The notes beneath the pieces were generated by a model. That model did not search any database. It was given only the letters and a program-made list of their open reading frames with translations, and was not told where the DNA came from. The position numbers and the translations under genes are program-made. From positions 3,098,048-3,162,047 of the forward strand of contig NZ_AP017560.1 in assembly GCF_003967015.1 (NCBI RefSeq): a stretch of DNA of 64,000 nucleotides. The letters run 5' to 3'. Position 1 is the stretch's first letter. Every line of letters begins with the position of its first letter. This document shows positions 20,293 to 23,086 of the stretch, piece by piece. This DNA is from Pseudanabaena sp. ABRG5-3. GTDB lineage: Bacteria > Cyanobacteriota > Cyanobacteriia > Pseudanabaenales > Pseudanabaenaceae.

Positions 20293-20332
20293 AGCAATAT
20301 AAGGTGACGCAATGCGTCACCTTAATATTGCT
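20293..20332. terminator. hairpin at the end of the CBM20/SGNH gene
   Basis: AGCAATATAAGGTGACGCA pairs with TGCGTCACCTTAATATTGCT with one unpaired base. It abuts the stop codon at 20332 and so probably terminates that minus-strand gene. Confidence 0.75.
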
Positions 20333-22599
20333 TAATCTGGATTAGGAGGACACCAAAAGAGATTTTGACTGGATATACCTAGAGACTCCAAAATTTCTTT
20401 CATCTTTTGGGTACATTCCATCCAATAGTCGAGACTGTCATACATCCAGTCAGGGCTAAAGTGTAAATCATAATGGAGTAAGTATGGAATATCCGTAAAC
20501 TCATCGGATGTTTGCTTGGAAATGAGTAATACTCGGAAAGGCTTCCCTTCACATTTAATTTTGAGTTTATCAATTAAATCTAGAACATAGTCACGATTAG
20601 TGACACCAGTGCGAATGAATAGAATTTCATCACTATGTTTGAGCGTATATAAAAACCTCTTGGCACGGGCCGAATAGCGGACTCGCATCCTTTCATAGAT
20701 AGGCTGCATGTTGTTAACTGGATCGTCGGAATCTTCAACTTCATGACCAAAAGATAGTCCTGACCATTTGGAATGATAAACACGACGATCAGTAGGATTG
20801 TAATGTAGGTAGACAGGATTCCACATATCCTGAAAGTCATTGACTACTAGATCAGTAACATCACCAAGATTTGTAGAACGCGCTAAGTCAAAAGGAAACG
20901 CAGGTCCATCATACTCCATTTTATACAGCAGCATTCTCGCCGCACAACGATCACCTAGGGGCAAAATTGCAATTCGATGTAGCTCTGACAATTGGCACTT
21001 GTATTTGAGTAGCATCGTTGATTTGGCAGGGGCTTTGACCCGACTTTCCAAACCACGATCGCCAATAATCATTGTCCGAAAAGGCATGTCAGGATGGACA
21101 GGATCGTGATATACCGCCGCAGGCATAGCTGCTAGAGCCGTGCGAATTTCTTTCCACATGGGATGGATATTATAGGCTTCATTAGATTCGTTGATAATCC
21201 GAATTGTGCGATCGCCTTCTTTAAGAATCCCTAAATATCCATCATAGTAAAGAATCTCGGAATTTTGAGGGGCAAAGAATTTCAGGGCGGAGCAGTATTG
21301 CAAATCTACGCCAACAGGAATTGCTACTGTATTCTCAATTGAACCATTTACCCCAACTGTCAATAATGGCAAGGTTCCCAACTCATCATTTTTGGAAATA
21401 TAGGTTCCCGAAATCAGTTCTGCTTTACGTTTTAAAGCTGCTTGCAACTCATTCCAAGTAGGAGTGATATTGTAGGAATGCTCAGATTTATTGATAATTC
21501 GTAAAGTTTGTGCTTCAGGACAGGCAAATACTTTAAACCCATACTTATCTTCGTAAATAGAAATCTCTTCTGTTTTTTGACTCTGCAATAAGGATTTCTG
21601 TGCCTGTAAACGACGCTCACGAGTTATTTTGAATAGATCGAGATTGATGGATTCAAACATCAGGCGATGCCCTGCGGTATTGGGATGAGCCACATCTAGA
21701 GATATGTTATGCTTCCATCCACCATAGCCATTATCGATCGCATCTAACCAATTGAGAATGGGAACTTCCCAATTTAACATCCGTTGGTGGGTATCACGCA
21801 AAAGCCAGTTATGCTCTGGATTGTAATCACCATTAGGATATAGACCACCAATAATAGGAATTGCCCCCAAATCTTGAGTCATTTTCACCAATTGCTGTAG
21901 CCCACTCTCAAAGCGTCGTTGAACTGCACGACGATCATGGGGACGGCAATAGGCTAGCCCTTCATTGCCGAGGGAAAGCGCGATAATCACAATATCTGGT
22001 TGTTCTGGGACAACCACAGAAGCAAAGCGATCGATGGTGTTACTAACAGTTGCCCCCAATTGTGAGCGATTGATAAGTTGATGCCCATATTTTTCTTGTA
22101 ATGCTTCGCCTAGCTGACTTGCCCAGCCCCTAAGCATCCAAGCACTACATCCCATCGCTACCGAACTACCAAGAACTAAGACTTTAATCCCACTCGCTGG
22201 ATTTAGAAGTTTAGGAGTTGTGGCGATCGCATTTTCTAGATAACCGTAGGGGAAAGCATGAATATAACTAAATGCACCATCATCAATAATAACTGTAGAA
22301 CTTGTCGAATTAATATATTCTTGTTCAATAGGAACCCATCGATTTTCACCACGTTCAGATTCCCATTGCACTTTTCCATTGGCAGCAATCCGCACATACT
22401 TATACTCAATCCGATCTAGTGGATTCGGCAAGCCTAAAGGGTCAATTGCAACGTCTACAGACCAAATAGGATAGCGATCGCTAGATGTGTTTAGAGATAG
22501 ATATTTATTGACATCCCACAATCCTAATTGAGGAATTGAACCAACTATACCAATCATTTCCCCATCTTGGGTGGGAGCCTTTGCCTGAAATCGATACAT
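20332..22599 (-). CDS. multidomain protein: CBM20, SGNH hydrolase, duplicated module, DUF1796 papain-like domain
   Basis: A 755-residue protein starting MYRFQAKAP; an upstream Met (22668) would add 23 residues that do not fit the first domain. Residues 1-105 match a CBM20 starch-binding domain (GIVGSIPQLGLWD; YKYVRI). An SGNH/GDSL hydrolase follows, with LVLGSSVAMG near 143, LSLGNEG and DVAHPNTAGH near 302, supplying the Ser, Asn and Asp/His residues. Two related modules begin near 366 and 468 (LRIINKSEHSYNI; IRIINESNEAYNI). The C-terminal 210 residues match DUF1796, a putative papain-like cysteine peptidase, beginning ILPLGDRCAARML near 548 with FPFDLARST. No signal peptide is seen. Substrate and role are unknown; glycan modification is a guess. 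Confidence 0.85.
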   Translation of the reverse strand: MYRFQAKAPTQDGEMIGIVGSIPQLGLWDVNKYLSLNTSSDRYPIWSVDVAIDPLGLPNPLDRIEYKYVRIAANGKVQWESERGENRWVPIEQEYINSTSSTVIIDDGAFSYIHAFPYGYLENAIATTPKLLNPASGIKVLVLGSSVAMGCSAWMLRGWASQLGEALQEKYGHQLINRSQLGATVSNTIDRFASVVVPEQPDIVIIALSLGNEGLAYCRPHDRRAVQRRFESGLQQLVKMTQDLGAIPIIGGLYPNGDYNPEHNWLLRDTHQRMLNWEVPILNWLDAIDNGYGGWKHNISLDVAHPNTAGHRLMFESINLDLFKITRERRLQAQKSLLQSQKTEEISIYEDKYGFKVFACPEAQTLRIINKSEHSYNITPTWNELQAALKRKAELISGTYISKNDELGTLPLLTVGVNGSIENTVAIPVGVDLQYCSALKFFAPQNSEILYYDGYLGILKEGDRTIRIINESNEAYNIHPMWKEIRTALAAMPAAVYHDPVHPDMPFRTMIIGDRGLESRVKAPAKSTMLLKYKCQLSELHRIAILPLGDRCAARMLLYKMEYDGPAFPFDLARSTNLGDVTDLVVNDFQDMWNPVYLHYNPTDRRVYHSKWSGLSFGHEVEDSDDPVNNMQPIYERMRVRYSARAKRFLYTLKHSDEILFIRTGVTNRDYVLDLIDKLKIKCEGKPFRVLLISKQTSDEFTDIPYLLHYDLHFSPDWMYDSLDYWMECTQKMKEILESLGISSQNLFWCPPNPD

Positions 22600-22756
22600 A
22601 GAGATGTCTTCTCTGGATAAGGAGGTAGTAATTATGCCTAATAGAACTTCCACAGTCATGATAGGCATGAACCATTTTTTAAGCTATCACCTATTGCGCT
22701 CTAAGTGTGTTTTAGAAATTACAGCATTATTGATAAGTTGTTCTATAGCAAAAATT

Positions 22757-22811
22757 AAAACCAAAAATACAAGTGGCAGTGCGAAGCACTGCTACTTGTA
22801 TTTTTGGTTTT
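22757..22811. repeat. 26-bp palindrome, GAA loop
   Basis: Arms starting AAAACCAAAAATACAAG pair with one G/T mismatch; apex GCAGTGC-GAA-GCACTGC. Outside the core, TATAGCAAAAATTAAAACC and GGTTTTATATTTTAAGCAGC resemble the flanks of the elements at 13709 and 52086. Confidence 0.9.
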
Positions 22812-22855
22812 ATATTTTAAGCAGCTTTTTTTTGCTATGTCGCAGTCCTCAATAG

Positions 22856-22957: not shown

Positions 22958-23086
22958 TGTTACGTCGAACCATCACTCCGTAAGGTAATCCTGTGCACAG
23001 TAGGGGCGGGTTTAGTTGATAACTCTGGGCTTAAAGTAAGATTTATATGCAAAACCCGCCCCTACTTTAGAAACTTCCACGTAACA
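22958..23086. repeat. nested inverted repeat, MITE-like
   Basis: Outer arms TGTTACGT/ACGTAACA enclose inner 15-bp arms AGTAGGGGCGGGTTT/AAACCCGCCCCTACT (22999-23013 and 23052-23066). The size of ~130 bp and absence of coding capacity resemble a miniature mobile element, but no target-site duplication could be identified. Confidence 0.6.

Follow-up and report, generated by a model that had tools for sequence, protein, structure and literature searches.

A conserved cyanobacterial protein joining CBM20, SGNH and DUF1796 domains is co-inherited with an acyl-CoA synthetase and may act on cytoplasmic glycogen

The window analysed here is a stretch of 64,000 nucleotides of the Pseudanabaena sp. ABRG5-3 genome (contig NZ_AP017560.1, positions 3,098,048 to 3,162,047), and its reverse strand carries a gene for a multidomain protein, annotated from the open reading frame (20332-22668, 778 aa). 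We placed the start at the methionine of MYRFQ, the boundary already taken by an earlier sequence-only reading, because orthologues begin there and an in-frame TAA lies upstream in several Pseudanabaena; residues are numbered from this methionine. The same reading had described a starch-binding domain, a GDSL-type hydrolase, two modules of about 95 residues and DUF1796 on one chain, and Pfam (all three matches exceed the curated cut-offs), hhalign and conservation agree with that layout (Table 1). As it had also stated, no signal peptide is present; CBM20 begins at residue 3 in Pfam, and its first strand at residue 2 in the model. AlphaFold2 modelled the whole chain with a mean pLDDT of 84; the C-terminal half, modelled separately since the full-length fold search was swamped by the SGNH domain, reached 91.

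Table 1. The gene and the parts of its protein, in window coordinates
Feature	Coordinates	Strand	Details	Basis
Whole gene, CBM20 - SGNH - module 1 - module 2 - DUF1796	20332..22599	-	755 aa, stop included in coordinates	
CBM20 starch/glycogen-binding domain	22318..22593	-	residues 3-94	Pfam CBM_20 (4e-19), alignment to 1ac0, invariance
SGNH/GDSL domain	21661..22176	-	residues 142-313 (Pfam), fold 132-326	Pfam Lipase_GDSL_2 (2e-13), invariance, fold match
Module 1	21271..21582	-	residues 340-443, predicted beta-sandwich like GH13 domain C	model, fold search, hhalign
Module 2	20995..21270	-	residues 444-535, second copy, more conserved, YNIHPMW invariant	model, fold search, hhalign
DUF1796	20335..20964	-	Pfam residues 546-694, plus conserved C-terminal tail	Pfam (1.6e-8), alignment

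The combination had been called unusual, which was right in kind, the architecture being a new combination of known domains, but it is not a one-off. The chain with CBM20 and DUF1796 recurs at full length across Cyanobacteria with 48-97% identity in dozens of genomes, a conservation that excludes chance, and the protein is thus real and conserved, and also unstudied, as we found no paper on its function or biochemistry, and none about a CBM20-GDSL protein among the matches by title and abstract. The full architecture is present in 23 of the 26 genomes of the genus group; two of the three lacking it are incomplete assemblies. It was also found in Oscillatoria, Microseira, Nostoc, Calothrix, Anabaena, Elainella and others. 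A sample of the phylum contained 26 carriers among 386 genomes, one of them with the gene as two adjacent ORFs. A search of plasmids and phages returned only generic SGNH matches, and PADLOC gave no defence match. The full architecture was also present, at 52.5% identity, in a metagenome-assembled genome labelled Chloroflexaceae (L066), reflecting either misbinning or transfer. Separately, another CBM20 protein of about 650 aa and different architecture occurs in many cyanobacteria (e.g., G119:C1:4324553-4324819).

In a few genomes the chain is broken. It is split into a CBM20-SGNH ORF and a module-DUF1796 ORF in G192 and L073, and its two halves lie on different contigs in G055. These natural breaks fall in or beside the linker between the SGNH domain and the modules, so that the protein resembles two functional halves, although assembly or sequencing error is possible.

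The CBM20 match scores 68.6 against a gathering threshold of 23.3 bits. Alignment to the glucoamylase starch-binding domain (1ac0) places W28 and W79/E80 at its LGDWE and VEWES, and all three residues are invariant in an alignment of 29 diverse sequences; W28 and W79 correspond to the Trp pair of starch-binding site 1. The SGNH domain has, in this alignment, Ser146 (GSSV), Gly182, Asn212 (GNEG) and Asp302/His305 (DxxHPN) invariant, while its GDSL box reads GSSV (GDS to GSS). The predicted structure contains an SGNH fold (Z 14-18.9 against many SGNH structures), with low pLDDT in the loop following Ser146. Its nearest neighbours are the carbohydrate esterases PbeAcXE and CspAcXE (Z 17.8-18.9), followed by TesA (about 16) and Axe2. 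PbeAcXE, CspAcXE and Axe2 share the fold (Z 14.5-18.9) but only 16-20% identity, lack CBM20 and, judging by the titles of their entries, act on acetylated plant polysaccharides.

The two modules had been described as copies of an unrecognised unit. They are indeed homologous to each other (hhalign probability 98.5%, E 2.6e-15), and no convincing Pfam match was found for either; fold prediction, in contrast, likens both to a known domain. In the models both modules look like domain C, the beta-sandwich at the C-terminus of GH13 amylases and CGTases (Foldseek probability 0.93-0.99, single-module matches), with fold matches of Z 8.0 over 88 aa at 3.0 A and Z 7.7 over 78 aa at 2.3 A, one per copy, where Z 8 is at the edge of the range reached by unrelated models. 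GH13 domain C made up nearly all top fold matches and was found by both copies. A sequence-profile search of solved structures with module 2 gave nothing convincing, and a Pfam match of module 2 to TyeA (best E 0.0007, 10 of 19 members) was judged spurious.

DUF1796 (PF08795) scores 35.0 against a gathering threshold of 23 bits and is marked by Cys552 (GDRCAAR), PFDL and His619 (SFxHE), the Cys and His being invariant in orthologues, as is FWCPP close to the C-terminus in the 29 sequences. When standalone DUF1796 proteins were added, the Cys was present in all rows and the His in at least 90%. The model runs from a strand through the Cys helix, a further helix and a hairpin into alternating helices and strands (alpha/beta). 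The fold matches listed for this range were weak (Z 6.4-6.8) and comprised the family-2 carbohydrate esterases 2wao, 2wab, 2waa and 2w9x and the acyltransferase SsfX3 (3skv); no papain-type structure was among the matches listed for the C-terminal-half model. Profile comparison found no relation of DUF1796 to the protein's own SGNH domain, a sequence-profile search of solved structures gave nothing convincing, and our literature search gave no paper about this domain. Nearly all DUF1796 matches within the class belong to the full five-part architecture. Elsewhere in the phylum, family f43 commonly has standalone DUF1796 proteins about 250 aa long; these and their relatives (L074-L083) share the GxxC ... 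FPFD ... F-x-H motif but are mostly alone on the chain and in loci of surface-glycan type. Whether standalone or fused, the copies in L074-L083 mostly have as neighbours genes read from their sequences as glycosyltransferases, DegT-type aminotransferases and acetyltransferases, and one is fused behind a GT2 glycosyltransferase (L079:1183-2655, reverse strand; Pfam). By sequence, these neighbourhoods are putative glycan-biosynthesis loci.

The gene has an AMP-forming acyl-CoA synthetase as a neighbour, a few kb away at most, in 16 of 42 loci. Adjacency takes four arrangements, among them the same strand downstream in Oscillatoriales and convergent orientation in Nostocales; in G192 the synthetase gene precedes the split gene by 137 bp on the same strand, as in an operon. 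Close orthologues of this synthetase (type 1, 62-79% identity) were present in 18 of the 386 sampled genomes, all 18 among the 26 carriers and in 0 of 360 non-carriers (p 4e-25, phylogeny ignored). In family f28 it occurred in 12/12 carriers and in 0 of at least 23 non-carriers (p 1e-9, relatedness ignored). Outside the sample, six further carriers encode it (53-77% identity), and it is absent from 13 further non-carriers in which all candidates were scored. Carriers in genera g35, g39 and g45 have both genes and non-carriers neither, and both are kept 0.65-2.5 Mb apart in five genomes (G238, G168, G158, G027 and G047), which together disfavour simple linkage. Pairwise distances computed for the one protein correlate with those for the other, with r 0.88 over the whole set and 0.81 when nine pairs, unlinked or on different contigs, are taken alone; joint vertical inheritance would give this pattern. 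Remnants of the gene persist in two more genomes of the sample (G216:C3:6269090-6269305, 72 residues; G167:C100:24179-24618, fragments) that also lack the type-1 synthetase, which suggests joint loss.

Pseudanabaena lacks type 1 and has instead a second synthetase type, 36-40% identical, in 22 of the 23 carriers of the genus; this type is absent from the complete non-carrier genome G018 and adjoins the gene in P. biceps O153. The partner in the source genome (G000:C1:2745054-2746532) lies outside the window, and for that reason the sequence-only reading missed it. Eight carriers outside Pseudanabaena are without type 1, and since eight carriers were counted with neither type, the link is strong yet neither absolute nor obligatory. 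AMP-binding and C-terminal domains were found in the synthetase, and the TSGTTG and PRNxxGK lysine motifs are intact in type 1; the TSGTTGxPKG pattern as used had no match in type-2 proteins. The best NCBIfam model, PRK07514 (malonyl-CoA synthase), likens the partner to the malonyl-CoA synthetases MatB and ACSF3, but its 393 bits fall below the curated cut-off of 558 and the substrate can therefore not be assigned. Across 65 loci only the protein and the synthetase are widely shared, with no third conserved partner gene.

The main carbon store of cyanobacteria is glycogen. The earlier proposal of cytoplasmic action on glycogen-bound material gains support from the missing signal peptide, the invariant CBM20 site-1 residues and the amylase-like modules, and that of an uncharacterised pathway from our finding no paper on it. 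We tentatively propose, with somewhat less than even confidence, that the protein is an O-acyl enzyme bound to glycogen in the cytoplasm, with a dedicated acyl-CoA synthetase as its partner. It would sit on glycogen via CBM20 and the two modules, and its SGNH serine triad would make or break O-acyl esters on the alpha-glucan. DUF1796, through its Cys and His, might work on this glycan too, perhaps offering another site for acyl handling or transfer. The synthetase would supply the acyl-CoA donor for acylation or recycle the acid released by deacylation, whatever acyl group is involved. Of the two directions we slightly prefer acylation, given the biosynthetic surroundings of DUF1796 and a partner that makes acyl-CoA.

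This O-acyl model is favoured by the domain content with its invariant catalytic and binding residues, by the likeness of the SGNH fold to carbohydrate esterases and of the modules to GH13 domain C, by standalone DUF1796 in putative glycan-biosynthesis loci, once fused to GT2, by the co-inheritance, adjacency and intact type-1 motifs of the synthetase, and by the natural splits at or near the SGNH/module boundary. It also has a precedent in OctT (Rv2418c), the mycobacterial MGLP octanoyltransferase, an SGNH protein that uses octanoyl-CoA to acylate early precursors in the making of an intracellular alpha-glucan (PMC4555173). OctT has Ser/Gly/Asn/His and Asp and no classical GDSL box, and shares the alpha-glucan context and the acyl-CoA donor (PMC4555173); in contrast, no CBM20, modules or DUF1796 are described for it. 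Against the model, the literature searched yielded no paper about glycogen in acylated form; the carriers outside Pseudanabaena without type 1, the weak DUF1796 fold match and the hydrolysis of lipids and thioesters by other SGNH domains such as TesA also count against it, and co-inheritance does not specify the reaction.

It is possible, but on balance somewhat unlikely, that cyanobacteria make a cytoplasmic glycogen bearing O-acyl groups, or a pool of acyl-alpha-glucan, and that this protein and its dedicated synthetase write or erase the modification. If true, it would be a bacterial covalent modification system for storage glycogen, similar in logic to mycobacterial MGLP or to eukaryotic glycogen phosphate. 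The pairing of a conserved SGNH protein targeted to glycogen with an acyl-CoA synthetase inherited alongside it hints that cyanobacteria chemically decorate or un-decorate stored glycogen, and offers a direct, testable two-gene hypothesis.

It is rather unlikely that the protein is specifically a glycogen de-acylase or repair enzyme, with the synthetase salvaging the released acid as its CoA thioester. Such an enzyme would follow the plan of laforin, in which CBM20 brings a repair enzyme to cytoplasmic glycogen, but would act on esters, laforin being a eukaryotic phosphatase (CBM20 plus dual-specificity phosphatase) without SGNH or DUF1796. The closeness of the SGNH fold to carbohydrate esterases suits this reading, whereas the DUF1796 relatives among biosynthetic glycan genes better fit synthesis, and the literature searched is as silent on its acylated substrate. 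We consider it improbable that glycogen is only an anchor and that the SGNH domain is a thioesterase or lysophospholipase that forms a cycle with the acyl-CoA synthetase and so couples lipid turnover with storage carbon; TesA is a neighbour in fold and sequence and the nature of the partner would suit such a cycle, but carbohydrate esterases outscore TesA (Z 18.9 vs. about 16) and three glucan-type domains and a glycan-locus domain share the chain. Very improbable, finally, is the earlier view of DUF1796 as a papain-like cysteine peptidase acting on glycogen-bound proteins, which has the Pfam name and the family-wide Cys and His in its favour and was not disproved, but is unsupported by a predicted order of strands and helices after the Cys helix unlike that of papain, by weak fold matches to SGNH esterases with no papain among those listed, and by contexts in glycosyltransferase loci. 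Predicted fold and gene contexts point to glycan chemistry over a peptidase, and the 'papain-like peptidase' label of DUF1796 deserves reconsideration in that direction.

Upstream of the gene, the window also contains a hairpin at 22750-22818 (33-nt arms, 91% complementary, 3-nt loop) with related copies at 12 or more places in the genome (23 matches, both strands), resembling REP or MITE elements, and a second inverted repeat at 22999-23066 (28-nt arms, AGTAGGGGCGGGTTT...) that is also repeat-like.
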